From: Acidobacteriota bacterium
Lineage (GTDB): Bacteria; Acidobacteriota; Vicinamibacteria; Vicinamibacterales; CAVVIG01
DNA: 64,000 nt
NCBI GenBank assembly: GCA_018268955.1
Contig: JAFDVO010000017.1
Coordinates: 173,890-237,889, forward strand
Direction of reading: 5' to 3'
How positions within the stretch are numbered: the stretch's first letter is position 1; the number at the start of each line of letters is the position of its first letter. Below, piece after piece: positions 17,313 to 49,756 of this stretch. The position numbers were made by a program, and so were the translations under genes. The notes below the pieces were generated by a model that was given only the letters and a program-made list of their open reading frames with translations, searched no databases and was not told the DNA's origin.

Positions 17313-17663
17313 GGGCGAGGGCGGCGTGTGCGAACACCGATGAGCTGAACCCGCCGGCGTGCGACTCCCGCGCCGTTCCACGCGCGGTGGTCGGCACGTG
17401 CGTGCCGCGGCGTGAACGATTCGCAGGCGTGGGGTAAATCGCCGTCAGATTCCGCATGTCCGAGATAGGGAGAACCAGCGCCGTGACCACTCTCTCACGC
17501 CTTGCCGAAGCGCCGCAAAGTCTTCTGGGTGGAGGACTAAAGGCGTCGGTGGTGCGGTCGAGGTCGATCAGGTCACTGCGTGCCACTCAACTCAAATGCA
17601 TCGCAAAACATCGATTCAACGGGCGCGCGACGGTCGGATTGGAACTTGCCTGAGGCGGCCGTC
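17313..17663. other. 351-nt divergent intergenic region
   Basis: This region separates the sigma factor (leftward) from the PEP-CTERM gene that heads the giant-protein operon (rightward). It must hold both promoters, but I see no convincing hexamer pair. A perfect inverted repeat CGGCACG-TG-CGTGCCG lies at 17392-17407 and could be an operator for the sigma-kinase operon. A short AT-richer patch at 17580-17620 precedes the rightward operon. Confidence 0.4.
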
Positions 17664-18302
17664 ATGAAGCCCATCTTTCTCATGCTCTTCGTGTGTTCGC
17701 TCGCACTCGTTGCCACCCCACGCACCGCGCGCGCGTCGACGATCGTTGCCGACCTTCGATGGGAGCAGTTGTGTGACGACGCAGGCTGCACGTCGGGCCT
17801 CGACAACTTCACCCTCAGCATTCTCGATGCCGCCGCGGGCACGTTCTCGAACGTCGACCTGTTCCTGACATACGACGACGCCACCACCGGAGTGCTGCCG
17901 TTTCTCTGCGCCGACCCGGTCAACACCCCCTGCGCGCAGAGCACGCTGTCGGTCGTCGACCCGCCGGTGACGTGGGGGCCCTTGTCTGCGCCTCCGTTCG
18001 TGATGAAGGCCACGTTCAACGACCTCAACGCGATTGTGACGACCGTCCCTGGCACCCTGTCGTTCTTCGACATCGCCGAACTGATCGAGCCGAACGTCCG
18101 TCGCTGGTCTGATTTCAGCCAGGAGGACTGGTTCTCGGATGTGACATCGCTGCGTATTCAGTTCGACCCGCAGCAGACCGATCCGGGTCCCACGGATCCC
18201 GCTCCGGTTCCAGAGCCCGCATCGTTGACGTTGCTCGGCACCGGCCTCGTCTCCGTGCTGTATCGGCGCCGCCGGGCAGGCGGTCCAGCCTCCCGTTCCT
18301 GA
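17664..18302 (+). CDS. PEP-CTERM sorting domain protein
   Basis: 212 residues from the ATG at 17664, chosen for the signal peptide (residues 1-25, IFLMLFVCSLALVATP). The mature part is a beta-rich, Asp/Thr-rich domain with paired cysteines (CDDAGC) and no known catalytic motif. The C terminus has the sorting signal VPEPASLTLLGTGLVSVLYRRRR: the PEP motif, a hydrophobic helix and a basic tail, recognised by exosortase and usually linked to exopolysaccharide. No exosortase gene is in the window. It ends 6 nt before the 4587-residue gene and so probably heads that operon. Confidence 0.85.
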   Translation: MKPIFLMLFVCSLALVATPRTARASTIVADLRWEQLCDDAGCTSGLDNFTLSILDAAAGTFSNVDLFLTYDDATTGVLPFLCADPVNTPCAQSTLSVVDPPVTWGPLSAPPFVMKATFNDLNAIVTTVPGTLSFFDIAELIEPNVRRWSDFSQEDWFSDVTSLRIQFDPQQTDPGPTDPAPVPEPASLTLLGTGLVSVLYRRRRAGGPASRS

Positions 18303-18308
18303 CCATCC

Positions 18309-21300
18309 ATGGGGAACCTGCGTGTGACTCCGCTCGTGAGACGAATCAGCCCCGCTCTTGCTGCCGCCGCGGGCGTCGCGCTGTGCGCGATTGCCGTGCT
18401 GGCCGGTTCGCTCTCGTCGCTCTCACCGCAGGGAGCCTCCCCCGGCGTCGCCATCACCTTCGTCGGCACAGGCCTGAGCGCCACGGCCGGGCAGAACGAC
18501 GTCACGTTCAGAGCCGGCGGGAACGCCGTCACAGTGGCTGCCGCGAACAGCGCGGTCGTCGATGCGTCGAAAGGCACGCGCCGGTTGACGGTCACGGTAC
18601 CGGGCGGACTTCCCGTCGGTCCTGCCAGCATCGAGGTCCTGAACAAGGACACCGGTGAGATCAGTGGCGGCGTGACCATGGACGTGCTCGGCCTCGAGCT
18701 GCCGGGGACGCGGGACGTTGCGCCGGGAACGACGGCGTCCATTGTGATCGCCGGGCTCGGCGTGACGAAGTTCGACGCGCGAACGCGCGTGACGGTGGGA
18801 GCGGGTGTCACGGCGAGCGGGATGACCGTGCAGTCGCCCACGCAGTTGACGCTCAACGTGACGGCTGCCGCGTCTGCGGCCATCGGGCCCCGTACCATCA
18901 CGGTGCAGACCACCACGCAGACCATCACGCTGCCGAATGTGTTCCAGGTCCGCAATCCGGCCCCACCGAACCAGGCGCCGGTGGTGACGGCGTCGACGAC
19001 GACGCCGACGGTGACGCTGCCGAATGGCGCGTCGCTGAGCGGGACGGTGACGGACGACGGTCTGCCGACCGGCGCGACAGTCACGACGCAATGGACGCAG
19101 CTGAGCGGCCCGGGTGCGACGACCTTCGCGAACGCGGCGAGCGCGACGACGACGGCGACCTTCAGCGTGGCCGGCAGCTACGTGCTGCGGCTGACCGCGA
19201 GTGACACGGACAAGACCGCCTTCGCCGACGTGTCGATCACCGTGAACCCCGCCCCGCCGGTGAACCAGGCGCCGGTGGTGACGGCGTCGACGACTACGCC
19301 GACGGTGACGCTGCCGAATGGCGCGTCGCTCAGTGGGACGGTGACGGACGACGGTCTGCCGACCGGCGCGACGGTGACGACGCAGTGGACGCAGCTGAGC
19401 GGCCCGGGCACGACCACCTTCGCGAACGCCGCGAGCGCGACGACGACGGCGACCTTCAGCGTGGCCGGCAGCTACGTGCTGCGGCTGACCGCGAGTGACA
19501 CGGACAAGAGCGCCTTTACCGACGTGACGATCACGGTGAATCCGGCCCCGCCGGTGAACCAGGCGCCGGTGGTGACGGCGTCGACGACGACGCCGACAGT
19601 GACGCTGCCGAATGGCGCGTCGCTCACGGGCACGGTGACGGACGACGGTCTGCCGACCGGCGCGACGGTGACGACGCAGTGGACGCAGCTGAGCGGCCCG
19701 GGCACGACCACCTTCGCGAACGCGGCGAGCGCCACGACGACGGCGACCTTCAGCGTGGCCGGCAGTTACGTGCTGCGGCTGACCGTGAGTGACACGGACA
19801 AGACGGCCTTCGCGGACGTGTCGATCACCGTCAACCCCGCGGCATCAACCAACTCGGCACCCGTGGTCACCGCGTCCGCAACGTCGCCTGTCGTCCTGCC
19901 CGCCACGTCGATCCTCAACGGCCGCGTCCAGGACGACGGTCTGCCGTCCGGCGCCCAGGTGTCGAGCCAGTGGCAGAAGGTCAGCGGTCCGGGGCAGGCA
20001 ACGTTCGGAAGCGCATCCAGTGCGGCGACGACGGTCGCGTTCGATGCGCCAGGCACGTACGTGCTGCGGCTGACGGCCACTGACGGGGAGAAGTCCTCGT
20101 CGGCCGAACTTCAGGTGACCGCCTCCGCCGCGCCGGCCCCGGTGAACCTCGCTCCGGTGGTTGCGATCAACGCGCCCGGTACGACCACCTTGCCGGCGTC
20201 CGCGCACATCATTGCGATTCCAACAGACGATGGGTTGCCGCGCGGGAGCAGCGTGAGCGGGCAGTGGTCGTTCGTCAGCGGGCCCGGCACCGCGAGCTTC
20301 GCGAACGCACAGAACCTCGACACGACGGCGACCTTCAGCCAGCCCGGCACCTATGTGCTGCGGTTCACCGTCTCTGACGGTGAGCTCTCCGGTACCAATG
20401 ACGCGACGATCGTGGTCAAGCCGGCACCCGCGGTGAACCAGCGGCCCGCAGTGTCCGCTGGCGCCAACATGTCCACGATTCTTCCGAGCCCCCTGACGCT
20501 CGAAGGAACGGCGTCTGACGACGGCCTGCCTGGCCAGCCGCTGACGATTCAGTGGACCAAGGTGAGTGGGCCAGGCACGGTCACGTTCTCGCCGGCCGAC
20601 GCGCTGCATGCGACCGTGGCCTTCTCGCAGCCGGGCACCTACACACTCCGGCTGACCGGCAACGACGGCGAGCTCACGGCCAGCGACGACGTCGACATCG
20701 TCGCAACCGTGCCGGCGATCACGAACCTCGCGCCGAGCGTGGACGCGGGGGCCGACCAGACGATTGCGTCGGGTGCATCGGCCCTGCTGGCCGGCACGAC
20801 CTCGGACGACGGTCAGCCCGGGCCGATGTCGCTGGCGTGGACGAAGGTGAGCGGCCCCGGCACCGTGAGCTTCACGGCGCCGAGTGCCGCGTCGACACAG
20901 GCGACCTTCACCGCGCCCGGTGTCTACGTGCTGATGCTGAGCGCCTCGGATGGTCAGCTCACGACCACCGACGACGTCGCAGTGACGGTAACGGCGCCGA
21001 CGAGCACGGTCGACCGTGCACCGCCCGTGATTACGCTCAGTGCTCCGCGGTCGGCCTTGCCCGGCGCGACCGTGCGGGTCTACGCGCAGGCGAGCGACGA
21101 CATCGGCCTCGCTGGCGTGACGCTCGAGTTCGAGGGGCAGCCACCGGTCAGCCTGACCGGCGCACCGTTCGCAGCGTCGTTCAACGCGCCGCAGTTCGCT
21201 GCCCCAGGGCAGCAGTTCACGCTGCGTGGCACGGCCACGGACGCAGCGGGCAATGCGTCGCAGGCGACCGCCACGCTGACGATCTCGGCCACGCCCGACA

Positions 21301-24300
21301 CAACAGCCCCTGAGGTCTCGCTCAAGGCTCCAGCGGTCATCTCCCCAGGCAAGGCGCTCCGTCTGGTCGCGAAGGCGACAGATGACGCTGGCATCGCGAG
21401 CGTCGTCTTCAGCGTGGGCGGCGTGGATGTCGTCACCGATGACCAGTCGCCATATGAGGCGACGTACATCGTGCCCGCCGCCGCACCCGTCGGCACGCCG
21501 ATCACGGCCCGCGCCAGAGCCACGGATACCGGCGGCAACGCCGCCGACAGCACCGCGTCGGTCGACGTCATTGCTGCGACAACTCCGGTCCCGCCGCAGA
21601 TCACCCTGACGGTGCCCGCCACCGCGGCGCCGGGAGACGCGATCACGCTGCTGGCCGATGCCACCGACCTCGACGGCATCGCGCATGTGGTGTTCGCGCA
21701 GGGGTCGGCTGAACTGGCCACCGACGACTCGGGCCCCTTCTCGACGACGTTCACGATTCCTGCGTCCGCCGTGCCTGGCGATTCGATCGCGTTCACGGCG
21801 ACGGCAACCGACCTGACCGACACGAGCGCCACCGACACCAGGTCGGTTCAGATCGTGTCCCGCGGCGTACCGATCGAAGGGGTGCTCACCGGCGAGGTGT
21901 ACGACGACACCACCAGCTTGCCGATTGCGAACGCGTCGATCGCACTCACGGGCGCGGATGTCACCGGCGTGCCGTACTCGGCGACGGCGACCACGGACGC
22001 GCGCGGCCGCTTCGTGCTCACCGCCGTGGTCGGCACGGGCGTACTGCAGGTGCGCAAGACCGGGTGGACCGCTGTCGACCGCGCGGCCACCATCGTGGGC
22101 GGCGACGTGCGGACGATGTTCGATGCGCGGCTCTCCCCGCTCGGGCCGTCCACGCAGTCGCTGAGCAGCGCTGGCGGCGACCTGACGGCCGCGGGCAACA
22201 CGGCGAGCTTCGCGCCGGGCACCGTGCCCACGAGCCCCGTCCGCTTCACGCCGCTGACACCGCAGGGCCTCGCTGGGCTCCTGCCCACTGGCTGGACGCC
22301 CATCGGCGTCGCTGAGCTCTCTCCGCGTGACGCCACCCTCGGCGGCAGCGTGCTGCTGCAGATCAAACGGGCGAGCGGTGCGGGCGCTGTCGCACCGCAG
22401 TTGGTGCGCTGGGACGATCAGCAGTCGGCGTGGCGTCTGGTCGGTGCGGGGCAGAGCACGGCAGACGGCGCGTTCCTGCAGGCCAGCGTGGACCGCGCGG
22501 GGCAGTTCGCGTTCGTCGTTGCTGACGCGCAGCCGGTTGCGCCGCCGATGCCGTCCCCGAACGGGCTGCTTGCCGGTGTCGGCGCTGTCACGCTGCCGCA
22601 GACGTTGGCGACGACGATCACGCCGGCGCCGAAGGTCATCTTCTATCAACCGGGTGTCGGCTCTGATGTCCGCACGACCGTTCAGCCGGAGGGGGCGGTC
22701 AGCAGTGGCGCCACGGTTGCCGCGAGGCTGACGGAGGCGTATCGGTTCCATGGGAACGCGAGCGCCGCGCCCGAACCGATGGTGCAGGACCTCGTGCTGT
22801 TCCAGGAGGCTGGCGCGAGCGCGCCAGCGCTCGGCGGTGCGCTGCACGTCACCCCCTCGCTGACCTTCGAGGCGCTCACGCTGCAGCAGGGTGTGATCGG
22901 CATCGACGTGCTGGCCGACCTGCCGGCTGGCGGCGGCACGCTGGCGCGCGTGCAGGGCGGCGACTTCTCGACACCTGCCGGCCAGACGCTCACGATTCCG
23001 CCCGGTGCGATCCGCGACGGTGCGGTCGTCTCGGTCTCGTCGCTTGCCGTCGGGGACCTGGGCATCCAGTTGCCGCAGGGGATCGGCTACCTCGGTGGCG
23101 TCACGGTTTCGCTGTCGGAGCCTCTCACGCGGTCCGGCGTGTTCTCGATCCCAGCACCGCAGGGGATCACCAACGTGGATCGGATCCTCGTGGTCAAGGC
23201 GCAGGAACTCGGGGGGCAGACCCGGGCGGTCCTGGTCGGCGTCGCGCACGTGGCGGGTGACCGGCTCGTGTCCGACACGGTCATCAACACACGTGCGACG
23301 GCGCTCGAAGGTGTGCGTGGCGCCGGCCGCTACGCGTTCATCCAGGCGGACGGACCGATCGGGTTCGCCGGCGGCGTAGTGACCGGGCTCACCGATCAGC
23401 CGCTCGGCGGCGCGCTCGTGACGAGCGACACGTTTTTCGTCGCCTCCGTCTCCAACGCCGTGGGCGGGTATCTTGCGGCGGCACCCGCGTCGGCGGTCGT
23501 GTTCACCGCTGCGGACCTCACGCGCAACGACGCCGGAACACGGTCGGCGTACCTGGTTGCCGGTCAGGTGACGCCGCTGCCGCTGGCGCTCGCGGCCCAG
23601 GCGCCACGCGTGACCTCCGTCATGCCGACGAACGGATCCAAGAACGTCCCGCTTGCCGGGCCGATCGTCGTCACCTTCTCGGAGCCTGTCGACCCTGCCA
23701 CGGTCGTTGACGCCATTTCCCTGTCCGGCCCCGGTGGATCCGCCGTCCCGGTGACCCGCGCGCTGTCGCAGGGCAACACGATCCTGACGGTGCGGAGCGT
23801 CGAGCCGCTCGCGTCCAACGCCCACTACACGTTCACGCTGGCGACCACCATCACGGACCTGTCGGGGTACGCGCTTGCGTCGGCGCTGTCTGTGGCGTTC
23901 GACAGTCTCGACACTGCGCCGCCGCTCCCGCCGGCTGCCGGGACGCTGACCGCATCGCTGCCGAACGCGCAGGGTGCGTCGACGATCACTGGAGCGCAGG
24001 GGACTGCCGGCCCCACGGATCGCGTCTTCGTGGACAACCTGACCAGGCGGACGTCAGCGGTTGCACTCGTCCAGGCGAACGGCAGCTTCTCGACCACGAT
24101 TCTCGCTGGCATCAACGACATCCTGCAGATCCGCATCGTCGATGCGGCGGGCAACGAGACCAAGGCGCCGCTGCCCGCGTTCCGTCAGGTGAATGCCGAC
24201 GGGTCGGTGAGCCAGGCGGTGAGCGCGCAGGGCGGGGTTGTCGACGGCCCGAACGGCACGCAGGCGAAGATCAAGCCGGGCACCTTCCCGAGCGGGACGA

Positions 24301-27300
24301 TCGTCACGCTGAAGTATGTCGAGGCGAGTGCGTTCCCGGTGCAGCTGCGGCCGGAGGATACCGGCACCTTCACGCTCGACGGGGCGATCGACGTCGACTT
24401 CGGCGGCCAGACGCCGCAGCTCTACGTCGATCTCTCGCTTGCGCCGAAGGGAGGCGAAACCGAATCGACCCGCTGGATCGTCGTGGCCGCGGACGAGATC
24501 GGCGGTCAGCGCATGATGAATGCGATCGACACGGCAAAGTTCCGTGGCGGCCGGATCACCACCGCATCACCGCCGTGCCCCGGCGTGCAGGCCTCGAAGG
24601 TCTACGGCTTCGTCCGCTCGAACCAGGCGGTCGGTGTCAGCTATTCCAACGTGTTCGTCGGCGTCGGTCGCGGGCTGCTCCTTGGGCTCGCCTGGAACTA
24701 CACCGGCGGTCCATTCGGCCTCGCGCCGTACGGCGTGCACGCGGACCCGTTCTCGGACGCCGTCTGCTACCCGGTGCTCACCTCGAACGTCACGCTGTCG
24801 GCGAACGCGGTGCGCGTCAGCATCCCGGCCGACCTGCTGACCCCGGCCGACCGCCAGATCATCCTCAAGAACACGCGGCGTCCGTCGCTGACGCCGAACA
24901 AGGTGCCGCGCGACGTCACGGAGTTCACGTTCGACGTGGAGGGCGAGACCTCCGATTCCTTCCGGGTCGAAGCGAGCGGCGTGCGACCCGACGGCAGCGG
25001 GCAGGCGGCCACGCAGCTGCTCACGCAGGTCGGCGTGTCGTACCTCGCCCCCGGTCGCGTGCGGATCCGGATCAACCCGGACCCGATGGCGATCGCCGTC
25101 ACCTCCTTCGAGGTGCGGAACCTGACGAGGGACACGCGGACGGTCCAGACCCTGCCCGATGCGGAGCCGTTTGCGGCACCGGCGACCGGCGGCAACGGCG
25201 ATCCCTTCCAGGTCACCATCGTCGACGTCCTTGGGCGCACGCGTCAGCTGCCACAGCTGTATGCGGGCGACGACTCCCTCTATGGGGCCGGCAACCTCGT
25301 GCTCAAGGCCGTGCCGGGCTCCATCGACCCGACGCGTGAGGAACTCGACGCGGCCGGTGTCGGCGGTCCCGCGCGCACGGCCGTCTTCGTGTCCGACCTG
25401 ACCCAGCCCGGGGTGTTCCAGCCGATTCCCGCAGACAAGATCGTCAAGGGCGGCATCAAGGGCGTCGCGTTTGCCGGCGATCCGACGCACGACTACGCCA
25501 TTCTCGTGAAGTACGACAGCCGCGGCGATTACCTGCAGAAGCTGCCCCGGATCCAGATCGACGTGCGGAACGCGTCGACCGGCCAGGTGCTGAAGACGAT
25601 TCAGTCCTTCGCGCCGCCGCCAGACGAACCGCAGGGGCTGCCGGACATCACCGACGGCGACACGCGGCCGCCGTACGTCATCAGCGGCCCGACCCGCCTG
25701 AACAACTTCGATCCGTCCGGCACGCTCGTGTTCACCTTCAACGAGGCGATGAATCCGGACACGCTGAAGAGCGCCTTCGAGGTGAAGGACAGCGCCGGCC
25801 GCATCGTCGCCGGCGACGTGGTGGTCTCGGGTGACGACCGCGTCGTGCAGTTCGTGCCGAAGGCGGCCTTCAAGGTCGGCGAGCGCTACACCGTCCGCAT
25901 CAAGGGCTACAACCCGGCGAACGACCCGCCGCCTGCTGGCGAGGGCGGTGACGACATCGCGCGCGACCGGCGCGGGAATCCGCTGGCCGAGATCGCGCTC
26001 GTGATGAAGCCGTTCGTCCCGCAGAAGATCGGCAGCTTCCCGGAGAACGGCGCGGAGAACTACGGCCCGTACAAGGATGTGGTCATTGCGCCGCCTGCCC
26101 CGGCCGCCGTGAACCCCAACCCGAACGAGCCGGCGCCAGACCCGAACCCGTCGAACCAGGGCACGAACAGCAGCCGACCGGTGTACGTGACGACGGGGCA
26201 CGGCACCTTCAACCTGCTGTCCATCGAAAGTCGGGATCCCAAGCACCTCGCGCTCAAGACGCCGCAGGACGGGCCGAACAGCCGTCAGCAGGGGACCTTC
26301 ATTCGCAACGTGGCCTTCCAGAAGACCGGCGGTCTCGGGGGCTCCTCCGGCAGTTTCTCGGGTGACCTGGTCGTGACGACGACGTTCAACGCGAACGCCA
26401 GCCGACTCGATTGGTACGACGTCACGCGCAGGAACGACACCGACACGTTCGACCTGCTTGGCGGGAAGATTCTCACCGAGAATCCCGACCTCGCCGGATT
26501 CGGGAACCGCAACAACACGTTCTTCTCGGACAGCGCGCTTGCGAAAGGCGTGGGCATCCTGAGCGGGGCTTCTGGTGTCGTCGCCTACGCGGCGGTCGAA
26601 CGCGTGGGCGTCCTCTCCGCCGACCTCGGCAAGAACACGCCGCAGCGGCCGCAGATCAACCGGATCAAGGAGGGTCTCTACCCAGGCGACTTCATCGATC
26701 TCGCTGTCGCCGACGGAAGCATCTTCGCCGTCAGCCGCGCACAGCGTGAGCTGCACGTGCTGGATCCGGGCCTTGGCGCGCTGGCGGTGCTGCCCCTGCA
26801 GTTGAGTGGCCAGACCTTCCGTCCCACGAAGATCGAAGTTCGAACCGGGCTGCAGATCGACAAGAACCACGACGGGTTCATCCAGCCGGACGAGGTGTAC
26901 AGCTACGCCTTCATTGCCGCGGACCAGGCGATGGTGATGGTGGACGTGACCGATCCCAGAAGCCCGCGCGTGACCGGCGTGGTGCCGGTGCCGGGCACGG
27001 TGCGCGACATCGACGTGGACGCGGAGCGACGCCGAGTGTTCATCACCGCAAATGGGGCGCTGGTGAACGTGACGGAGAACGGCGCCACCCGCCAGGTGGA
27101 CGGCTACGTGGCGATGGTCGACGTGAGCGACCCGGATAGCGGTTCGCTCATCGACGTGGATCGCGACGGCCTGGACGACCGCGTCATCTGGCAGCAGGGG
27201 GCGTCTGGAGTCAACGGCATTCGCATCGACACGTTCCGCGGCGTGCTCTTCGTGGCGGGTGCGACGCTCGACACCTACGCGGTCTACGACCTGTGCTGCG

Positions 27301-30300
27301 ACCTCGGCGTCGACCTTGCGCCGAAGCCCACGGCGACCGTCACCGGCGATCGGCTGACGCTGATTCAGCTCGAGAAGAAGGCGGTGGCCCAAGGGCTCGC
27401 GCAGGGCATCGAGAAGTCGATTGCGCAGTGCGGCGTGCAGGCATCCGACATCAAGCTGCTCGACCTGGGCTCGGGGTCCTGCATCTGGAAGAGTGCGGAG
27501 GAGTGCGGGTCGGACTACAAGCCAGGCCTCGGCACTCACGATCTTGCCGTGTTCTTTGCGCACGACGCGCTGCTGGCCGATGCGCCGGGGAGTGACAGCG
27601 GCGCCTCCTGCACGGTGGGGAAGCTGTCCGCGGAGTTCATCGACCCGCGTACGGCGTTCGTGAAGGAGATCGACGTCGACGGCCTCAAGGTTCGTGTGCC
27701 GGGCATCACGTTCGCGGCGTATCACCTGAGCGAACTGCAGCTCGCGCAGTACAACATCCTGACGCGCGACACCACGATCCCCGGCCAGACACTGCCCGAC
27801 TACGGCATGGGCCGGCAGTCCCTGCTCATGAGCCATGTGCTTGGCGGCACGTGGGTCGACTTCGTGCCCGGGTACGGGGCCACGTTCGCCGGCCCGTCGC
27901 TCAACGGGGTCATGGCCAAGCTGCGGCAGACGCGCAACCTGACCGAACTCGAGGGGAACGAGGATGCGCGGCTCGCCAAGTACGCGCTCGCGAAGGGGCA
28001 GGTGTACGTCCGGATCCCAGGGGCGTCGTCCGAGACGTCCTACTTCAACAGCCTCTATTCGTCGCAGATCACTGCCGCTGCAGCCGCCGGCATCAAGGCG
28101 GCCCTCGGGGTCCTCGTCAACGACATCAACGGCCGCGAACGTCTCCTCGCGGTGTCGCTCGAAGCGGTGTCACCGCCGTCCCTCGACCATCCCGTGAAGA
28201 CCTTCGGGCAGGACGCCTGCCTGACCGAGGACCCGGCGCTCGACGCGAGCGAGTGGCCCGAAGTGGGGTGCACGTCGTTCGACCACTACGTGGCGTCGGT
28301 GGCTGCACGCACACGCCGCGCCTGGGGTGCGCACCCGTCGCTCAACGGCAGCGATCCCGGACGCCCCGAGCTGTTCACGGTCGATCGGGTACGGCAGGTC
28401 ATGCGGTTCTACCGAGTAGGGGCTGGCTTCGAGAGCATCCAATCGGAATCCGATGCCGATGCGTTCATCCGTGAGGTGCACCTGTTCGTCCAGTGGGCAC
28501 TCGATGCGACGCAGCCGCGCTACGACAACGTCCTCGACCAGATGGCGCGCGATGGCAACACGCAGCGGTTCCAACGCGTGCAGAACCGCGAGAACCTCGC
28601 GGGCGCCACGATCAAGGAACTCGGCCAGGCGTCGCTCAGCATCGTGCCGCACATCTACAACCGCGGCTTCAGCCGAGCGGACCAGGTGCAGCTCGACATG
28701 TATGTGACGCGTCCAGGCGAGTCGACTCCCGCGATCGCCGACACGTCTGTCACCGTGTCGGTGGACGGTGGAACCGAGAACTGGGCGGACTTCCGTCGCA
28801 ATCCCGATGGGACCCTGGTGCTCGATCAGAACAACGCCGCCCAGGCGCAGTTTTCACTCGGTCCCCTCAGCCAGACGGCATCTCCGGGCGTGCTCGGCTG
28901 GGTGGCCTTTGCGATCGACCTGCCCGCGAAGAAGCAGCGGGAGGCGAACCGCCAGAACAACGTCGGCGGCAGCTACTTCTACATGCTCGATGTCGGCCCG
29001 GCCGCGCAGCCGCCAGGGACCGGCGGTCGCGTGCCCTCTCCCGTCGGTGACGCCATCCTCACGGGCGACGACGACTGCAATCCGGATCCGGTGCTCGTCA
29101 TCACACAGGGGATCCGTCCGGCGGGGCAGACCACCGCGTTCCTGAGTCCGTATCGGCTGGAGGTCGGCCAGATCGCACACCTCGAAGTCGACGTAGTGAA
29201 CAAGGCGGACGTCGGCACGACCGTGACGCTCTGCAACACGCTGAACGGCCGCTGCGAGTCGCTGGGCACGATTCCCTCCCAGTCCAACGCTCACACGTCC
29301 ATCGCTGTTCCGACAAACGTTCCCGCGACCTACGACATCATCACGACCGCCTACTCGTCGGCAACCGGTGTCCAGCGGCAGTCGCCGTACCGGGTGACGA
29401 TTGCCTGTACGCCGTACGACATGGTGCCGCTCAGCCACGACAAGTCGGTGGCGTCGAGCGTGATGCGTCAGGGGACGTCGTACCGGTACTTCCAGGTTGT
29501 CAACCACCTGACCGGCAAGCCGGTCGTCGGCGCCACGATCAAGGTGAAGGTCACTGGCGACCGGCAGGGCACCGCGCAACTCACCACCGATGCGGACGGG
29601 TGGGTCGGCTCCTACAACGAAGCCGGGGTCTTCCGTCGGGGCGTTGCGATTCCGTTCTCGTTCGGCAGCGGCGGCCTGGAGGGCACCGCGAACGTGCGCG
29701 TGTCGCTCGACCGCGGCGACACCACGGAGTGCGGCGTCTACCAGGATTACACGCTCAGCTTCACCGAGCTGAAGACCACGCACACGATGAGCCTGGGCGG
29801 CGCGCTCGAAGCGGGCGGCCAGATCGCCCGTGGACAGCTGACGGTCGGTGGGAGCACGGGGCTGACCTTCGGCGTCACCCGGGTCGAGGACCGCAACGGC
29901 GTCCGCTTCTCCGACTTCACCCTCAGCCACACGCACAGCCTCGATGCCAGCCTGAAGGGCAAGCTGGTGGTCGAAGAGGGCCTGTCGCTCGGCGTCACGG
30001 CCGCCGTCACGACACCCGGTGCGGGCGGAGGGTTCGTGGGCAGCATCGCCGGTGCGGACTCGTACAGCTTCAACGACATCGAGCACCTGAACGAGGATGA
30101 CCTGCGCGGGATCACGGCGGTCCTCTTCGAAGCGGCGACAACAACGGTCCCCGGGCCGCTGACGCGCTTCGTCTCGGACCAGTTCCGGCGACAGTTCGCG
30201 CCACGGCTGCAGAAGACGAGCCGATCTCTCGGCCTGACGGTGGGTGTGGCTGGAGAGGCCTACGCGCTCGGGAGGCTCAAGCTCGGATTCACCAAGAACC

Positions 30301-32072: not shown

Positions 32073-32914
32073 CACGCACGCGAGCCGTGAGGATGGCCAT
32101 CTGTGCGGCGGTGCTGACGACGCCGATTGTGCTCTCGGCACAGGGCGGCCCCGTGCTCGCACGCGCCGCGCTCGACGGCCGTCCGGTGTCGGTGACGACG
32201 GAGGACGTGAAGCTCGAGGTCCTGCTGCTCCGCCGGGCGGGCAACGCCGCAGCCTACGCATCCGTCGACAGCCTGGAACCGGTCCTCAGCCGCGTGCTCA
32301 CCCGAAAGCTGCTCGCCGCAGAGGCCGCGCGCCAGCACATCGACCGCGATCCGATGGTGACGACCTACATGGTCCGTTCGTCGGATGCCGCGCTCGTGGA
32401 CTCGCTGACTGGACGCGTGGGCGCCGCGGTCGACACGAGCGAGGCGGCCGTGAAGACGTTCTTCGAGGCGCACGCCGATCAGTTCCGGTCAGCCCCTCGC
32501 CGCAAGGTCCGCCATATCGTGGTGCCCACAGAGGCCGACGCCAAAGCGGCCCGCGAGGCTATTGCGGGGGGCGCCACCTTCGAGACGGTCGCCCGCGCAC
32601 GCAATACGGACAAGACACGCGAGAGCGGTGGCGACCTCGGCTGGTTCGCACAGGGCTCGATGGTGAAGGCGTTCGACGACGTGGTGTTCGCGGCGGAGAA
32701 GGGTGCCGTCGCCGGCCCGGTCCAGACCGCGATGGGCTGGCACCTCGTGCTGGTCGAGGATGTGGATGCCGGCAGCCTCCCGCCGCTCCCGCTCGTACGA
32801 GACAAGGTGATCGAGGCGATGCGTCAGGACGCGATGGCGCAGCTGACCAAGCGGCTCGTCGACGAAGCCAAACCGGTAATCGACCGCGCCGCGCTCGAGG
32901 AGCTGCTCAAGTGA
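32069..32914 (+). CDS. Parvulin-type (PpiC) peptidyl-prolyl isomerase, secreted
   Basis: 281 residues. A signal peptide lies at about 1-24 (AICAAVLTTPIVLSAQ). A SurA/PrsA-like helical N-terminal segment (about 30-140) precedes the parvulin domain at about 145-250: RKVRHIVV, then ATFETVAR, ESGGDLGWFAQGSMVKAF, GPVQTAMGWHLVLVEDV. These match the PpiC family core, including the GG(D/E)LGW signature and the terminal GWH strand. It catalyses proline isomerisation in the envelope. Its start overlaps the stop of the 4587-residue gene (ATGA), and its stop overlaps the GTG start of the 5578-residue gene (GTGA). This strongly suggests a dedicated folding factor for the two giants. Confidence 0.92.
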   Translation: MTRTRAVRMAICAAVLTTPIVLSAQGGPVLARAALDGRPVSVTTEDVKLEVLLLRRAGNAAAYASVDSLEPVLSRVLTRKLLAAEAARQHIDRDPMVTTYMVRSSDAALVDSLTGRVGAAVDTSEAAVKTFFEAHADQFRSAPRRKVRHIVVPTEADAKAAREAIAGGATFETVARARNTDKTRESGGDLGWFAQGSMVKAFDDVVFAAEKGAVAGPVQTAMGWHLVLVEDVDAGSLPPLPLVRDKVIEAMRQDAMAQLTKRLVDEAKPVIDRAALEELLK

Positions 32915-35900
32915 CCCGCCACGCGACCCGCCGACCCGCCCTGCTCAGCGTCGTTGCTGCGTTGATGGCCGTCCTCGCGAGCGCGCTGCTCACGCCCGCG
33001 GCTGCCTCCGCGCAGGGACGCGTGCTCGGCCGCGAGGAAATCCTCCTTTACGGCATCGGCCTCAAGGTCGACCCGGCCACGCAGACGGTGCCGAAGAACT
33101 TCGCCACCATCGTCTCGACGTATCTGCAGGCACCGACGCTGCCGCCCGAGACGCCGGCCTTTGCGCCCGATGCCGAAGTCCGCGCCACGCTGCGCGGGCC
33201 CAGCTTCCCGGCGCCAATCGAGCTGGTCGCCAAGCCGAACAGCCCGTTCAACATCCCGGTGTTGACGGTCCCAGGCACGCACACGCTCGAGAACATTCGC
33301 CTGGTCAGCAATGGGGACGTGCTTCTCTACGGGAGCCCGGAAACCGCGCGCATCGACGTCATCGAGAAGCTGCTCGTCACGACGGTGACGACCCGCGCGC
33401 TGACGGCTGACGAGATCCGCGAGAAGGGGATCGTCTACGACCGCTCGAACTTCCAGGCGTACAACTTCACTGCCGCCTTCGCCGTCGACAACAGCTCGAA
33501 CATCAACATCTCGTTCCCGGTGCTGCTGCCGACCATCCCGCAGGTCGGCGACGTCAACCCGAACGCCGCGGATCTGAAGACAATCGACGCCCCGCAGCTC
33601 CAGAGCCTGAAGACGCTCGTTCCGGACACGCTGCAGATTCAGGCACGTATCCCCAACCTGAGCGTCGTCGGCTTCACGCTGACGCTGGACCAGAAGACCG
33701 GCAGCCAGGACTTCTACGTTCCACCGATTCCCGGCGTCATCGTCATCCCCGGCGACATTGGCTTCCTGAACCAGTACTTCAGCGTGATGCTGATGGTGGC
33801 CAACGTCGCGCCGACCGGTTCGAACCTCGTCGTGAGTGAGCTCACGGCCAGCATCGTCCTGCCTCCCGGCAAGGACAACGTTGTCGGGTCCGATGACGAC
33901 CCGCTGGCGATGGCGACCCGCGCGAGCGGCGCGTTCCCCAGGGTGGTGGCGGTGACGCAGCCCGGCCCCGATGGGAAGCTGGGCACCGGTGATGACGTCA
34001 CCACGCTGGGACCGGGAGAGACCGGCAACGCTGAGTACCTGGTCGAAGGGCGCCGCGAAGGCACGCACGTCGTGGAGATGGAGCTCTCAGGCACCCTCAA
34101 CGGACTGCCGGTGGGCCCGGTGCCGATCCGCGGACGCGCGGCGGGCGCCGTGCTGGTGCGCAACCCGACCTTCACGCTGACGTTCACGCACCCAGAGATC
34201 GTGAATGCCGGCGAGCCGTACACGCTCGACGTCACGGTGACGAACACGTCCGAGTCGCCGGCGAACGTGGTGAGCCTCAACCTGTTCCCCGCGAACATCA
34301 CCGGGGCACGGCTGGACGACGACTCGTCGAAAGGCGTGGACTCGATCGCGCCTGGCGATTCGAAGACGGTGTCGTTCCGCCTGATCTCGAACCGGACCGG
34401 GAAGGTGACGGCGGCAACGCTCGACTCCGATGAGCAGGTGCAAGGACGCTTCGTGCTCAAGAGCGCTGTGGGCGAACTCGGTGTGCCGCTCTCGCCCGAC
34501 TCGTTCATCCTGCCAGTCGAAGCGAACGCCCTGTCGGCGTCGGTCCGCAGCACGGCCGTCGACCTGATGGCACGCGCGTGGGCGGTCGCCACCGCACCTC
34601 CCGCTGCCGTCCCGAAGGACCTGACGCGCTTCTCGAAGCAGATCGTCCTCGATCGCGGCGCCGAGACAGCGGAAGCAGGGCTGCGCGTGTCGCTCGGCGA
34701 ATCGAACGCGAGCGCCTCCGCGTCACTGCTGTTCGACTTCCTCGGTTCCGAATACCCGCTCCTGGCGTCGAAGGTGCCAGCAGGCGATACGTCAGGGCTC
34801 CTCGCGCTGCTGCAGCGCGACCTGCAGGGCTTCGACCTCGTGCGTCGCCGGTCCGTCCGCGGCGACCTGTTCGCCAGCGCCGTCGCGGGTGAACTGCTGC
34901 CGGCGGTCCAGGGCGGACCGTCCGCATTCCACAGCTCGTTCGCGCAGCAGATGACATCCCGACCCGGGCACGTGTCGGTCCTCATCAGCGGTACGTCTGG
35001 TGCGCCGCTCGGATACGACGCAGTGATCGTCGACGCATCCGGCCGCCGGCTGGGCGGGCTCGAGAGCGGGAAGGTGGTCAAGGAGATTCCGTTCGGCGAC
35101 GCGCTGCCGTTCACCGACGCTGCCGGCACTCCAGTCGCGACGCTTCTCGTGATTGCCGTGCCGAATCCCGGCACCTACACGCTGCAGGTGCTGCCGCGTT
35201 CAGGGATCGACCCCGCGTCACCGTTCGACCTGAGCGTCGTGCTGCCAGATGCCAGCGGGAAGCTGCAGTTCACCTCGCTGACAGGCGTCCTCCCGACCGA
35301 GGGGTTCGCACTCACCAACGGCGCGGGCGATCCTGGCTTCCAGTACACGCTGAAGCGCGACGCGACCGGAGGCGCCGTGCGGGCCGCCACGCTGTCCGCA
35401 GTTGCCGACCCGCCACCATCGATCGTCGCGGTCCGCCAGCTCGCGTCGGCCGACATGGTCGGCTGCCCGCTCGAACCCGAGAAGACCTACTCCGCCGGTC
35501 GTGTCGTCGCGGTGCTGTTCAGCGAGGCGGTGACTGCGGCCAGCGTCCAGGACAAGGCCGCCGCTGAAGCCATCAGCGCCTTCACGGCGCAGAACAACCG
35601 GGTCGTCGGCGTGGCGCTCCAGCCAGGCTCGCGTATCGCGTACGTTGCGCTGCGGTCGCCCGTGGGCCCCTTCGAAGCGCGAACGATGACGATCGAGGGC
35701 GTGCAGGACCTGAACGGCAACACCCTGGCGACACAGACGCTGCCGATCCAGACGACGGTCGGCACGTCGGCCGGACTGGTGTACGGCCGCGTGATCCGCT
35801 CCGACGGTCTGCCGGCGGCGTTTGCGACCGTCCGGATGTTCTACGAGTTCAACTGCATGGACGGCGCGAGTGCTGTGGGCGTGGCCGAGCAGCGCGCCGA

Positions 35901-47900: not shown

Positions 47901-49647
47901 CACCACCTCGCGACCGATTCAGATCGCGGCAACCTACGAGACGCAGCCGAACAAGAGCGGCGTGGTCGTGAGCGACGTGGAGCCCTCGGTCGCGACCGGC
48001 GGATACATCGTGCGGCGCGATGACAACGGGCAGGCATCCGCGTTCGGGGTCGTGTTCGCAGGCGTGAACGCGCCGATTGCGCCGACCCTGGCGACGTCCA
48101 GCGGCGGCGCCGCCTTCTCCGCGTTCGCGCTCGGAGCCGGGGTCACGTCGATGCCGGTGACCCTCACGGTGCCGGCCGGACAGAGCGTGGCGTTGCTGAG
48201 CTACGTGGTGGTCCAGGGCCCCACCGCACAGGCTGCTGTCACGAGTAATGCCGAAGCGATCGCCGCAGGCCCGACGGCGGATCTCCTGGCCGGCCTGACG
48301 CGGGACGACATCCTCCGGATCGTCAACTTCAGGCTGACCGCACCACCGCCGGGTCCCGCAACCGTGCGGGTCGCGGTGCTCGGACGCGATGGCATGCAGA
48401 CAACCGGTGTGCGCGTGGCGCTCACCGGCAGCAACGGCAGCGCCATCCAGGAGCCGTATACCGACGTGAACGGCTGGTTCGAGTTCGGGAATCTGGTTCC
48501 GGCGGCGTACGTGGTGCAGGCGAGCGTCGAGGAATGCGATGACAACGGCTGCCGGACCTACTCGACCGACCGGCCGATCACTGCCAGCGCCGATTCGTCG
48601 CAGGATGTCGTCCTCTCCCTGGCCTCGCTCGGTCGCACGACGATTCAGGTGCTGGACGACGCCGAGCCGGCGCAGCCGCTCGCGAACGAGTACGTCGAGG
48701 TCGAACTCCAGCCAATGGTCGGCGGGCCGCTCGAGAGCGGGGCGGTGCGTGCGCTCTCGGTGACGCTCGACGAGAATGGCGCGTTTTCCGTCACGGACCT
48801 GCCGCCCGGCGCCTTCGTCGTGCACGTCTACAGCCCCACACGTGACCTGCACGGGAGTGCGGTTGGCACAGCAACGAAGTTCGCCGCAACCACGACGACC
48901 GTGCCGCTCTCATCGTCCGTCATGGGGCTGACGAATTCCGGCATGCTCGTGTCCGCCGCTGGCGGGTTCTTCTACGGCCTCGACGCAGTCGGCGTCAGCA
49001 ACGGCTACCAGTTCGACGGCAACTCCCTGCTGCACGGCGATCCCCTGTCGAAGGATGGCGCGCTGTCGACCGGCACGACCGCGATCTGCTGCGCGTTCAC
49101 GTCGACCGACACCGGAGCGGGCTGGCTCTTCTCGCCGGTGCCGGTGCCGTCCACCGTGGGCGTCGTGATGACGCGGCGGATGGCGATCACCGAGGGTGGC
49201 GGGGCCATGCGGTACTACGACGTCTACACCAACACGTCGACGTTCACCCAGCAGGTGCCGGTCACGATGGTCACCATGCCGAACAGGAGCACGGCAACGG
49301 TGCTCGACATGCCGGTGTCGCCGACGACCGGCGGGTACTTCGTCAGGGCCGACCCACAGGGAGACGCGCTCACGTTCGCATCCATCTACGCCGGGGCCGC
49401 TACGACGCAGCCGTTCGACGTGGTCATCAGCGACAACCCTGACACGATCGCGGTGACGACGATGCTCCAGCTTGCGCCGGGCCAGAGGGCGGCGCTCCTG
49501 CACTACGTGCTGCTGCGCTCGCCGGAGGAAGGGGCAGGGGCGGTGACGGCTGCGGACGCGCTCGCCTCGCTCAGCGACTCGAGCGCGCTGGTCGGACTGA
49601 CTTCAGAAGAACGCGCGCTGATCGTCAACTTCAACGCGCAGCTATAG
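32911..49647 (+). CDS. Giant secreted carboxypeptidase-regulatory repeat protein (5578 residues)
   Basis: GTG start overlapping the PPIase stop. A signal peptide lies at 1-35 (ALLTPAAASAQG). After a unique N-terminal beta domain (about 36-260) come a CARDB-like domain (about 420-535), an SbsA-type Ig domain (about 850-950), and a run of carboxypeptidase-regulatory-like domains (GxVxxxDGxP...Txx[DA]xGxFxFxxVPxGxYxV pattern). By eye there are about 34 of these, in blocks at 954-2180, 2890-3510 and 3780-4880, plus two more near 5150-5325. Between 2180 and 2890 lie two more SbsA Ig domains and Ig-like repeats. Three copies of a separate 244-260-residue module occur at 3510-3768, 4881-5140 and 5331-5574, the last ending the protein. 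No catalytic motif or sorting signal is visible. The regulatory-domain fold is a stable beta sandwich, so a long extracellular fibre or stalk is the simplest reading. Confidence 0.85.
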   Translation: MTRHATRRPALLSVVAALMAVLASALLTPAAASAQGRVLGREEILLYGIGLKVDPATQTVPKNFATIVSTYLQAPTLPPETPAFAPDAEVRATLRGPSFPAPIELVAKPNSPFNIPVLTVPGTHTLENIRLVSNGDVLLYGSPETARIDVIEKLLVTTVTTRALTADEIREKGIVYDRSNFQAYNFTAAFAVDNSSNINISFPVLLPTIPQVGDVNPNAADLKTIDAPQLQSLKTLVPDTLQIQARIPNLSVVGFTLTLDQKTGSQDFYVPPIPGVIVIPGDIGFLNQYFSVMLMVANVAPTGSNLVVSELTASIVLPPGKDNVVGSDDDPLAMATRASGAFPRVVAVTQPGPDGKLGTGDDVTTLGPGETGNAEYLVEGRREGTHVVEMELSGTLNGLPVGPVPIRGRAAGAVLVRNPTFTLTFTHPEIVNAGEPYTLDVTVTNTSESPANVVSLNLFPANITGARLDDDSSKGVDSIAPGDSKTVSFRLISNRTGKVTAATLDSDEQVQGRFVLKSAVGELGVPLSPDSFILPVEANALSASVRSTAVDLMARAWAVATAPPAAVPKDLTRFSKQIVLDRGAETAEAGLRVSLGESNASASASLLFDFLGSEYPLLASKVPAGDTSGLLALLQRDLQGFDLVRRRSVRGDLFASAVAGELLPAVQGGPSAFHSSFAQQMTSRPGHVSVLISGTSGAPLGYDAVIVDASGRRLGGLESGKVVKEIPFGDALPFTDAAGTPVATLLVIAVPNPGTYTLQVLPRSGIDPASPFDLSVVLPDASGKLQFTSLTGVLPTEGFALTNGAGDPGFQYTLKRDATGGAVRAATLSAVADPPPSIVAVRQLASADMVGCPLEPEKTYSAGRVVAVLFSEAVTAASVQDKAAAEAISAFTAQNNRVVGVALQPGSRIAYVALRSPVGPFEARTMTIEGVQDLNGNTLATQTLPIQTTVGTSAGLVYGRVIRSDGLPAAFATVRMFYEFNCMDGASAVGVAEQRADASGNYQFDYVLRAPAMNVKLVALDEESGDARPVRFVLARDNQRMNVDVVFIGRGGITGRVYAEDGRTLLPGTALRATSTTDQSQYAATTDANGRYTFSAVPVGNVLIEAVNVERVASVFVSETVPFAGAVVTRDLTLLDVSPASPITRGSITGRVVRADGVTGVANLPVIAYYTTRSQAGVPCAPPPGGTQEPAECAIDVVSTDAQGRFVLNGLPSGSIRLNTFDQTYLQEGTVRVSLQPNQTLDVSVLLGGGYGAVHGVVLDASRRPVPDAVIGGGATLVNAGPDGSFTLTDIPVGRTRLVAVSNALQSQGEASVDIVQNGETVNTTIVLDPIGSVAGIVRDHDGVPQAGIKVWVFRDCYDEQLQPSICINGQATSDAQGAYRIDKLGIGQYTLSAFRADLKDGNVFPIAIRYERQVLVSDITFRGGTGTVTGRVLRANSCPTPPCADTPLPARVSISGDRLVVAGGRIGVKFEYVQNFEVVDNDPTTGEYHFKSGVFTGPFTLRAAGQFSPEPVAAEGTMPGPGQTVTVDLRLQPTSRLTGTVFEADGFTPVTNRQVALKFQSNAVVVICHDDEQTGDSECQSIPQGIQEAFAATDANGQFTFPLVNAGPFTITATDATTGQVASIKGTVRPGDTVDLPVRLLARAPVTVRVFRSNGTTPVLNANVTVQGLDYPRDTRNGIATNGTIQFQGGDAVAEGQFVVTAMDANGFAGRKAGRVTPTGGPVTVDVFLFDATGTVNGQVVKADGNGALVPTPNAEVILSNASGPLAYALTDAQGGFSIPLVPTGPFTIESFDPVTAARGRADGTVLGGPQPVSVTVTLESLGSIRGVVVQSGSRAPLKGWTVQLSQTSVTGRSLPDQIAQTGVDGSFAFPGATVGSFSLRASRRDVVGSATASGQLSRGGQLVDVPMVVDIVRRVTGTVQGIVLNPQGSPAPNAQVEVCPSGEACKGAVAGADGRFSVGDLPLGRFTVRASAQVTGNPSVGTTGGSLLFEGDTANVTITLLGLSSVQGTVYQIVNGARVPAPNATVRLSGQPGSGCPSYCQQGTDGNGQFTFINVPAQTFTVTASSLTGQQGSVGDVLVPGQARSGLEIVLAPAVNVAGRALVGSAPARGVIADLSVNNGHLFAETAEDGTFSFDGIGAGAYTLRLQDPVGGGLARRTGTVNLTGPVVLGDITLDDAAPAVASSEPANGALNVGRTPTLTVTFTEPLDATTVNATTVTLVGPSGPVSGQVDSQTNDTVVRFRLLPGVQLADQARYTLRVTGVQDRVGRPLAADYIATFTTVDITPPAVAETTPMFSATGVSVDAVVRVRFSEIVDPSKFVGAPVTLTGPQGPVAGRTDFLFSNSVVVFTPNVPLADTAHYTVTVQRPTDRAGLRAAADTTFAFDTTDRTPPVILSLTLDGTGTVVQNTTARVRATVAETDIAVVDFFLNDTFAFAARTTPFTMDFKALASLADANGGRIKVSAIATDTSGNRGVVPVQAFLTVVADQPPSIAITQPLGTLTPAPGERVSVTVRATDDVGVDQISYSARGSFVIDAASVPVSPASTDRTQTFAFNVPADAVPGSLVTIQATARDTAAQSTAAAAIALRVRDSIAPTIQITGLSSGQRVAPGTRVTAVVSASDTSGIGRIGFAVSGVTVSSEERLVSPAQSPVVTSFEFTVPANASSSDRVFVDAFAIDGAGNRGDAARLIVPVADRQAPTVTLRTSSGSPSMTPGANVQVIAQATDDLAVTSIQLTVAGAFDFTETRTIAVPAADVSATFSLAVPGTVQAGSTATVTARATDATGNVSTPVSLTLTAQNTTTVSLPSSVLLRAGDDAEMTVTLGTPAPAGGLRVDLTSRNTGIATVPSSVTFAQGETTRSVTVHAVAGGSTQIDAAVGGVVSATTTVTVSGGVVRGDVTTAGPNGFVPVAGAQVTVFHSGTPIVTTTDAQGRFVVEGVQGWGYTGRGFSVTASDGSRLDAESFELDTAGGSATVSLNLLDMGLIKGSVLQPDVQTPAGAGARVDLFEAASPNVVIATTFTDESGAYQFPLVAPGPYTVEASDANGNRGRASAQVTSGLESVVPVVYLGRSTVIVRVLNGVGATVGGAQVQLQSSSLFGSAAARTATTNATGEVSFPDVFVGSVSATATDPFTLQGGSAAGQVTTAGQSVTLTVQFAQYGNLTGTIRRRDGVTPAPGAQVTVDVAGRGRFNATTDGTGVYRFEFLPFAPFTITVFDPSTRGRAIDSGTFGTSGETVTRNEILLPQGALLVTVVDADGAPVNGATVSATTQSNGLTDALQGATGVVNGNGGQVLLDRLLAGSFTVQVSALGLNGSASGVLAADEVRGVTVQLEARATIAGSVFEPDGATPAVGFVRVYNTVNYQSVNATLQGGSFSVPNLRLGTYRVEAYDAANRLRAIAESVALTGNAQTQQVTLTFIGLGTVQGRVLHPSGGDVGNLTVNLRSLNPQFGGYASAQTDAAGNYSIGGIPVGAVAVSSSKPAEQLLGEASGAITQDAQIITLDILLEANAVALPTTLNDVQDSQYGVGQNAGLIGGTGSVFTRGGETLTLSSNGTSTAFTGASFGTREDAGREIAVRQSGLFGLNVTRKVFVPQTGYFARYLEILQNPTAAPVTVDVNLTSKPYGQREPFCCLYNENQYWVAATSSGDTTIDVAAPGSADRWLSLGVRTQDAYYDYYSSGVPLGFAFSGPGAATPVSTASFAVEQSVPVLRYGWNSVTVPANGTIALMHFVSEQASVDAATASAERLAQLPPEALDGLSAAEIAAIANFAVPANGVSAVAPMPGVNGAVSGRVVEGDGLTPVAGAEVTFRSANRILARIRKATSNASGQFSFSGGTGAPVPLDGFTLSAKYPNTQYTFSPTITAALSNAQASLTRDVPFSTSGILKGIVRRQNGQPVAGARVENVYFSTVTTGADGRYFFGGVPAGTPTLRGTVDHPQGTALNILPQTVALAAGQVRDDVLLVEPTGAVTGTVRDADGNIQIGRPITLTATSFSRYTTSDSAGRFTFSDVPVGTFSVSSSDPVSGFPSTRSVAVAADQTADGSLAYAGKAALTVTVTRATGAPIQGMSVTISAPNVNTQTLSTNASGVAGPFNGLPIGLTYTVTAAHPGNAGVIRRSASLPLTTATASTTLTLPAFGTVSATITRPNGTLPGNGVNAYLENVPGSSPSLYTYGTTDATSQISFGVVPAGTPFRIRAYRPPAYQGQPSYSLLTGPFSIATDGQALAVTARTPALASVQVTVQNSAGTPITNARVDEKDVYTGNFQNRGVTDANGRLTVAEVPEGAFQVRAYQPGSNVNVLELAAGDVVAANDGTIVPIVVAARSYSVTVSGTITEHDGATPLGNVYLRLLRGVDGAEVSRACNGDPYYCYTNSTAGSRGAFSFAAVTSTAAGLVLEITSPADYTKYLVPIAPNADGPVTVNYALPVYTVAIQGHVYAADGTTPVPGGVVYPYTFTNRGGFGTFVDPDGSFRIPSSVYPVDGVRLEFNLTGLDGGRFSVNTVPFTQSGQTVSTDIVLPTGTVSTVQGTVVAGDGSTPLDSSRVVFNFGTGSCATGDNCSVTTDAQGRFSYLAVLPTDGQFTARAHSPKTYAIETSQAGTAASQGAVVNIGALTLPISVLSGFATNGTTQPVQDLAVFVRDQANVTTWADRSSAGTFTFYELPAGDYQLTAQNTEAATEATLPVAMPTATSVVAGVQVQLPIVSTVTVTVDGVDGWTTDQASVALVRPAGTFERVLSGSNIGFGRYQFGSVPIGDYQVQVALEVCDADNNCEIRYAAASATVVDETPVDVHLSFATSAQAVVSVQDGFSQPIASALVHVAVQSLAATGPLGSYAREFDLTTDAQGSFVLPYLPDGLFTVRVSDVDHGTGAATTTASSATPAVVEVQLGGHAFALAPNNGYWLEGGGTRDRNYVVNGRGTIVDTYRWDGTSVLEQGAFYRAMDLWVGGNALCCPISGTYSADRNELSIGPAAPASVPGLVATRRLRILQAGDVVRVLDTFSNTTSRPIQIAATYETQPNKSGVVVSDVEPSVATGGYIVRRDDNGQASAFGVVFAGVNAPIAPTLATSSGGAAFSAFALGAGVTSMPVTLTVPAGQSVALLSYVVVQGPTAQAAVTSNAEAIAAGPTADLLAGLTRDDILRIVNFRLTAPPPGPATVRVAVLGRDGMQTTGVRVALTGSNGSAIQEPYTDVNGWFEFGNLVPAAYVVQASVEECDDNGCRTYSTDRPITASADSSQDVVLSLASLGRTTIQVLDDAEPAQPLANEYVEVELQPMVGGPLESGAVRALSVTLDENGAFSVTDLPPGAFVVHVYSPTRDLHGSAVGTATKFAATTTTVPLSSSVMGLTNSGMLVSAAGGFFYGLDAVGVSNGYQFDGNSLLHGDPLSKDGALSTGTTAICCAFTSTDTGAGWLFSPVPVPSTVGVVMTRRMAITEGGGAMRYYDVYTNTSTFTQQVPVTMVTMPNRSTATVLDMPVSPTTGGYFVRADPQGDALTFASIYAGAATTQPFDVVISDNPDTIAVTTMLQLAPGQRAALLHYVLLRSPEEGAGAVTAADALASLSDSSALVGLTSEERALIVNFNAQL
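43438..44214 (+). other. Repeated beta-rich module, copy 1 (in the 5578-residue protein)
   Basis: Residues 3510-3768. Core features shared with copies 2 and 3: a TRK/TRR strand followed by a G..R.L[ED]..[LFY].N segment (here NVTRKVF ... YFARYLEILQNP), a hydrophobic ALMHFVSEQA strand, and a terminal LDGLSAAEIAAIANF helix. A vicinal cysteine pair is at 3630-3631, but after the TRK strand, unlike in the other copies. Confidence 0.7.
47551..48330 (+). other. Repeated beta-rich module, copy 2
   Basis: Residues 4881-5140. It contains a vicinal Cys pair at 4947-4948 (ALCCP), then ATRRLRIL ... VVRVLDTFSNT, GGYIVRRDDNGQA, ALLSYVVVQGP and the terminal LAGLTRDDILRIVNF helix. It aligns best with copy 3. 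Confidence 0.75.
48901..49632 (+). other. Repeated beta-rich module, copy 3 (C terminus of the giant)
   Basis: Residues 5331-5574. It contains a Cys pair at 5393-5394 (AICCA), MTRRMAI ... AMRYYDVYTNT, GGYFVRADPQGDA, ALLHYVLLRSP and the terminal LVGLTSEERALIVNF helix, four residues from the end of the protein. Confidence 0.75.
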
Positions 49648-49655
49648 GGAATTGC

Positions 49656-49735: not shown

Positions 49736-49756
49736 GTGCTGTGCAGGGAGAGCGTG

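Follow-up and report, generated by a model that had tools for sequence, protein, structure and literature searches.

The 64-kb window analysed here (the whole stretch of DNA, from an Acidobacteriota bacterium) carries a cassette built around two genes for giant proteins, giant1 and giant2, which recur side by side in related loci, co-occur among genomes, yield congruent trees and differ between loci in the C-terminal module that giant1 bears. On balance, we favour the reading that this conserved, co-evolving cassette encodes one large extracytoplasmic assembly: a secreted pair of giants with exchangeable cargo, folding helpers and a small exosortase-sorted protein. The parts are of known kinds and the combination appears to be undescribed, as a sequence-only reading of the window had held: in searchable open-access papers we found no description of a PEP-CTERM, isomerase and Ig system, of a giant CarboxypepD-repeat system or of similar combinations.

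Layout of the cassette

Four plus-strand ORFs, encoding a small PEP-CTERM protein, giant1, a parvulin and giant2, were confirmed (Table 1). The stop codon of the PEP-CTERM gene is followed by a 6-nt gap before giant1, and the giant1/parvulin and parvulin/giant2 junctions are 4-nt overlaps (ATGA and GTGA), in agreement with the coordinates and junctions of the sequence-only reading. Overlaps of stop and start codons do not entail the strict stoichiometry that it deduced from this layout, and this claim is withdrawn; that reading also missed the conserved thioredoxin-like gene downstream and the frequent sigma/kinase or CHAT regulator upstream. That giant1 and giant2 are real coding sequences is not in doubt, since both align over their full length to relatives.

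The small protein has a C-terminal PEP motif, a hydrophobic stretch and a basic tail, with PF07589 matching residues 209–232 of the 240-aa ORF (28.9 bits against a cut-off of 20.7, E 1e-6). The rotamase domain of the parvulin exceeds the cut-offs of PF13145, PF13616 and PF00639 (E 2e-21). The thioredoxin-like protein, for which NCBIfam holds no family, has lost the CXXC motif (SPPS instead) and has no Pfam match; its G049 homologue matches AhpC-TSA (E 8e-7).

Around the cassette, some ten copies of AATCGCT lie at 49650–49720, between giant2 and the thioredoxin-like gene, and the cassette is adjoined by a gene for an L,D-transpeptidase with scaffold and peptidoglycan-binding domains (50348–52033), for which BLAST found no counterpart in the first six relative loci. 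A CsgG-like protein, an FHA-trypsin-like protein, a second Ser/Thr kinase and a PilZ protein are encoded nearby (7700–13217), and at 1045–5186 a TIR-domain gene overlaps an nSTAND1-WD40 gene, an arrangement that looks like a pair for conflict or signalling. Near the cassette there is no gene for an outer-membrane export route, and the GC bears no mark of recent import.

Table 1. Features of the cassette and its flanks in the window (residue ranges are approximate)
Feature	Position	Strand	Basis
Ser/Thr protein kinase with TPRs, divergent, candidate regulator	14228..16759	-	PF00069 (E 5e-48), TPR
ECF sigma factor, divergent, candidate regulator	16749..17381	-	PF07638 (E 1e-54)
Small PEP-CTERM protein	17664..18302	+	PF07589; ATG inside the listed 17580 GTG ORF
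giant1, 4587 aa	18309..32072	+	ORF, Pfam, alignment to relatives
giant1 stalk: 3 PKD units of 294 bp, 93% identical, K319L-like PKD	18968..19840	+	TRF, Pfam
giant1 conserved platform, residues 1190-2090	21876..24578	+	common to all giant1 variants compared
giant1 predicted beta-propeller, residues 2622-3004	26172..27320	+	AlphaFold model, VIA-align
giant1 helical region with conserved cysteines, residues 3015-3441	27351..28631	+	alignment A3, AlphaFold model
Parvulin-type peptidyl-prolyl isomerase, 281 aa	32069..32914	+	PF13145/PF00639
giant2, 5578 aa	32911..49647	+	ORF, Pfam, alignment to relatives
giant2 N-terminal conserved head, residues 37-560	33019..34590	+	conserved; without Pfam or NCBIfam family
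Thioredoxin-like secreted protein	49754..50266	+	homologues 3' of giant2 in 13 other loci

Domains and modules of the two giants

As judged by Pfam, giant1 of the window contains PKD repeats, Big_5 and Big_7, and giant2 at least 22 CarboxypepD_reg stretches and Big_5. The PKD, Ig and carboxypeptidase-regulatory domains named by the sequence-only reading were thus recovered; the IPT domains were not (no Pfam match to IPT/TIG in giant1 at E≤0.1), and CARDB stays sub-threshold in giant2 (20.9 against 22.7 bits). Neither window giant has a Pfam match to a TPS, autotransporter or RTX family or a recognised enzyme domain, and the earlier claim that the giants lack an enzyme holds for this pair; for the family it fails, as giant1 relatives bear a subtilase or a phosphodiesterase.

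Across loci, sequence comparison shows giant1 to be modular: the Ig/PKD stalk varies, a platform of about 900 aa is conserved, and the C-terminal part is exchangeable. We read the near-identical PKD units of the window stalk as a sign that its length changed recently. The window and most main-type loci have a C-terminal part made up of a predicted beta-propeller and a helical region with conserved cysteines, and this window-type C-terminus shows about 30% conservation from phylum to phylum. The sequence-only reading had called part of it LVIVD-like; Pfam gives no such match, and the AlphaFold model of the region (mean pLDDT 70) suggests a propeller, aligning by VIA-align to the archaeal YVTN surface-layer propeller 1l0q with Z 25.9 and rmsd 2.6 over 270 residues. 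The helical region had no fold match among the matches listed, which the propeller filled. PDB sequence searches with the C-terminal part and profile A3 returned nothing credible, and NCBIfam has no family for the platform or the C-terminal part. Membership of the stalk in HypBA2 or M36 was rejected, the NCBIfam matches covering repeat parts only and lying far below the cut-offs.

The same platform carries other C-termini elsewhere: a subtilase (S8) with an intact D/H/S triad (D2893, H2934 and the Ser of GTSYSSP) in G031:C1, a phosphodiesterase domain (PF01663) in G064, and DUF6531 with RHS_repeat in G417, G541 and the Verrucomicrobia MAG; in G497, a long ORF overlapping giant1 carries DUF6531 and RHS repeats. 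The C-terminus of giant1 in G021:C415 resembles, by eye, a lamin-tail domain. The subtilase-bearing relative (L150, G031:C1:61156-75330) is preceded by a PEP-CTERM gene, with a CHAT protein upstream.

giant2 aligns over its full length to nine relatives at 37–49% identity (giant1 28–36% in this comparison), and its N-terminal 900 aa are 53–63% identical in five relatives. Neither Pfam nor NCBIfam has a family for the giant2 head, and a PDB sequence search with the N-terminal profile gave nothing credible. We set aside a functional reading of the head model (pLDDT 63, pTM 0.52), the matches being generic Ig-sandwiches of the transglutaminase/integrin type (Z up to 11.2, rmsd 12).

Distribution, gene order and joint inheritance

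The profile of the giant2 N-terminus (A1) matches the isolate Geobacter argillaceus and Desulfuromonadaceae, Nitrospirae, Caldilineaceae, Elusimicrobia, Verrucomicrobia and Terriglobia MAGs; this search was pattern-based, so the relatives found are a lower bound. The head occurs in 40 of 396 genomes of the phylum and in 9 of 141 of the Geobacter order. Within its own lineage the cassette is patchy, being absent from a genome of the same genus and from most of the family.

giant1 lies beside giant2 across Acidobacteriota and in Geobacter argillaceus, the Desulfuromonadaceae MAG and the Verrucomicrobia MAG, the two being neighbours in almost every relative with a contig of sufficient length to judge: in 12 main-type loci and most distant-type loci, with G629 as a 13th main-type locus where giant1 is split over two frames. 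The full order of PEP-CTERM protein, giant1, parvulin and giant2 is found in Geobacter argillaceus and the Desulfuromonadaceae MAG, bearing out the synteny that the sequence-only reading had predicted. The genome of the window itself holds a second pair, a non-sister copy on contig C4, in which giant1 (about 4.6–4.7 k residues) overlaps giant2 (5.7 k) by 4 nt and a thioredoxin-like gene follows; 4-nt overlaps recur among the relative loci. There are exceptions: no giant1 was found in the 9–13 kb or more read either side of giant2 in G063, the platform of G599 lies about 15 kb from giant2, and in the Nitrospirae and Caldilineaceae MAGs giant1 pieces are on contigs other than that of giant2.

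Main-type loci follow the order [regulator] - (PEP-CTERM) - giant1 - (parvulin) - giant2 - thioredoxin-like. In the distant type giant2 precedes giant1, sometimes with one small gene between them (for an OmpA-domain protein in G237 and a thioredoxin-like protein in G050). A PF07638 sigma gene accompanies the cassette in four loci (the window, G021:C147, G031:C9 and G190:C1), a kinase in three (the window, G021:C147 at 44% identity, and G031:C9) and a CHAT-TPR protein in two. In G105:C220 (L155, 3–3308), a giant1-like frame lies past the thioredoxin-like gene on the same strand, possibly reflecting tandem cassettes.

BLAST with the body of the window PEP-CTERM protein found no homologue elsewhere and missed the slot, as the bodies of these proteins are dissimilar; PEP-CTERM proteins are similar only at their ends (PMC12188702). 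An HMM of the tag, applied to the C-termini of 13,286 ORFs from 47 loci (1.73 Mb), matched six clearly (the window, Geobacter, Desulfuromonadaceae, Nitrospirae, G031:C9 and G031:C1). Each of the six ends 3 to 104 nt before a giant1 frame on the same strand, and these loci contain no further PEP-CTERM gene elsewhere. The 12 seeds include five of the six matched tails, the Nitrospirae tail not being a seed; seed tails came from a motif search of upstream regions, those of G031:C1 and the window from Pfam. As six loci have a PEP-CTERM gene in this position, the idea of a chance neighbour was dropped. All four PEP-bearing genomes tested encode an exosortase (the window's own, with PF09721 at G000:C27, E 5e-77; G031; Geobacter; Desulfuromonadaceae); G105, G629 and G064 lack one, and no PEP-CTERM gene was found in their cassettes either.

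In the window, G052, G021:C147, Geobacter and Desulfuromonadaceae a parvulin gene separates giant1 from giant2, and in G105:C671 and C220 one precedes giant2, which makes seven loci in two phyla; the gene is absent from the second pair on C4, G049, G021:C73, G021:C415, G031:C9, G190 and others. Since roughly half of the main-type loci lack a parvulin gene and roughly half a PEP-CTERM gene, the steady core is giant1, giant2 and the thioredoxin-like gene. The latter is found in 14 loci including the window, eight of them with CXXC, and the losses fall partly by clade (window, G052 and G190; Desulfuromonadota).

Counting strong matches of the main type in 193 genomes of the class, we found both giants in eight, only giant2 in one (at a contig end), only giant1 in none and neither in 184 (Fisher p 2e-13). 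Tree distances of the giant1 and giant2 cores correlate over 17 pairs (Mantel r 0.88, p 1e-4) and over the ten pairs within the class (r 0.86, p 1e-4). Seven of 14 splits are common to both trees, and wherever the two conflict, at least one of them gives only weak support. Since joint transfer would also be expected to produce the co-occurrence and the Mantel correlations, we take these as evidence of a unit of inheritance. It is accordingly conceivable, if rather improbable, that giant1 and giant2 are two independent large surface proteins with no common structure, kept together only by horizontal transfer as a block, in keeping with the patchy distribution and the close relatives in other phyla. 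Such transfer fits poorly with the change from giant1-first to giant2-first between the main and distant types, in which adjacency is nevertheless kept and which argues for function, with the recurring 4-nt overlaps, and with the return of PEP-CTERM and foldase genes to fixed slots.

A proposed two-giant assembly

In the assembly that we favour, all cassette proteins would be exported by Sec, as signal-peptide-like N-termini (by eye) suggest, and the parvulin and thioredoxin-like protein, where present, would help to fold the giants in the periplasm. giant2 would be the dedicated partner of giant1, most simply binding the platform and forming a long scaffold of a head of about 525 aa followed by more than 20 carboxypeptidase-regulatory-like beta-sandwiches, and the C-terminal cargo of giant1 would be displayed on the assembly. 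Where present, the exosortase-processed PEP-CTERM protein may tether the assembly to the outer surface or to exopolysaccharide; in other bacteria, exosortase and PEP-CTERM proteins make the attachment of exopolysaccharide to the cell surface more stable (PMC12188702). Switching the cassette on may fall to the neighbouring sigma factor and kinase, or to the CHAT protein. We infer contact between the giants and a place at the cell surface; the assembly probably serves to build matrix or to make contact with other cells.

The sequence-only reading had taken the products for partners of one system. Adjacency, co-occurrence, congruent trees and fixed slots speak for this, but the composition that it gave was incomplete: the thioredoxin-like gene had been left out, whereas parvulin and PEP-CTERM are not part of the steady core. 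Points against the assembly are the absence of parvulin and of PEP-CTERM, each from about half of the main-type loci, where tethering and folding would have to proceed by other routes, the want of a nearby gene for an outer-membrane export route, the missing CXXC of the window thioredoxin-like protein, the non-adjacent giants of G063 and G599, and the middling confidence of the AlphaFold models.

Among known systems, exosortase/PEP-CTERM sorting likewise combines a small tripartite PEP-CTERM protein of divergent body with an exosortase in the genome; unlike in the systems at exopolysaccharide loci (PMC12188702), the PEP-CTERM gene here has a fixed slot before a giant. Giant multi-Ig adhesins such as the 7651-aa Mobiluncus adhesin (PMC10619420) share the thousands of beta-sandwich residues and the inferred surface role, whereas here two co-evolving giants come with foldases in the cassette and with exchangeable enzymatic or RHS modules. 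Bacterial teneurin-like (RHS/YD-repeat) proteins (PMC6425310) resemble giant1 in great length, Ig/CARDB/CarboxypepD-type upstream repeats, a swappable C-terminus, a beta-propeller (predicted in giant1) and perhaps a TTR-like start of the conserved part (in giant1, PF13715 matches the platform start at residues 1193–1263 below cut-off, E 0.0016). The giant1 relatives with RHS repeats on the same platform match this published bacterial class; giant1 of the window, in contrast, lacks YD repeats (PF05593), and giant2-type partners, PEP-CTERM, parvulin and thioredoxin-like genes are not mentioned in the consulted passages of that paper.

This likeness raises the possibility, which we consider unlikely, of contact-dependent delivery of the teneurin-like/RHS polymorphic kind, giant1 delivering its swapped C-terminal payload and giant2 serving as filament or receptor-binding partner. 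Payload exchange behind a constant platform and the DUF6531 and RHS repeats of distant giant1 proteins and of the overlapping G497 ORF would suit delivery, as would the delivery role suggested for teneurin-like proteins of Acidobacteria, Deltaproteobacteria and Verrucomicrobia with the same kind of upstream repeats (PMC6425310). However, the RHS repeat is absent from window giant1 and its whole genome, no immunity-gene-like neighbour was recognised, and the window-type C-terminus is conserved between phyla, unlike a fast-diversifying toxin tip; delivery weighs above all for the RHS versions of giant1. A secreted degradative complex with the giants as a scaffold for enzymes is very improbable, for although the G031:C1 subtilase and the G064 phosphodiesterase would suit it, we recognised no enzyme domain in either window giant or in the C-terminal parts of giant1 scanned from the C4 pair, Geobacter, Desulfuromonadaceae and G190.

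Going beyond the single assembly, we tentatively suggest a so far undescribed class of two-giant surface machines, found in five or more phyla, whose constant giant1 platform and giant2 scaffold would present a propeller, protease, phosphodiesterase or RHS shell, with their own folding factors and an exosortase-sorted anchor; RHS-bearing teneurin-like proteins would then be one cargo version with an undescribed giant partner. Giant bacterial proteins are usually handled singly and labelled ‘Ig-like surface protein’. Once more than 10,000 residues are seen as a conserved, co-evolving pair with helpers, it becomes possible to propose and test a partner, the accompanying helpers and a likely route of tethering, and the RHS/teneurin-like link supplies those orphan proteins with a candidate partner. 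Direct tests are possible in the cultured isolate Geobacter argillaceus, which has the same four-gene order.
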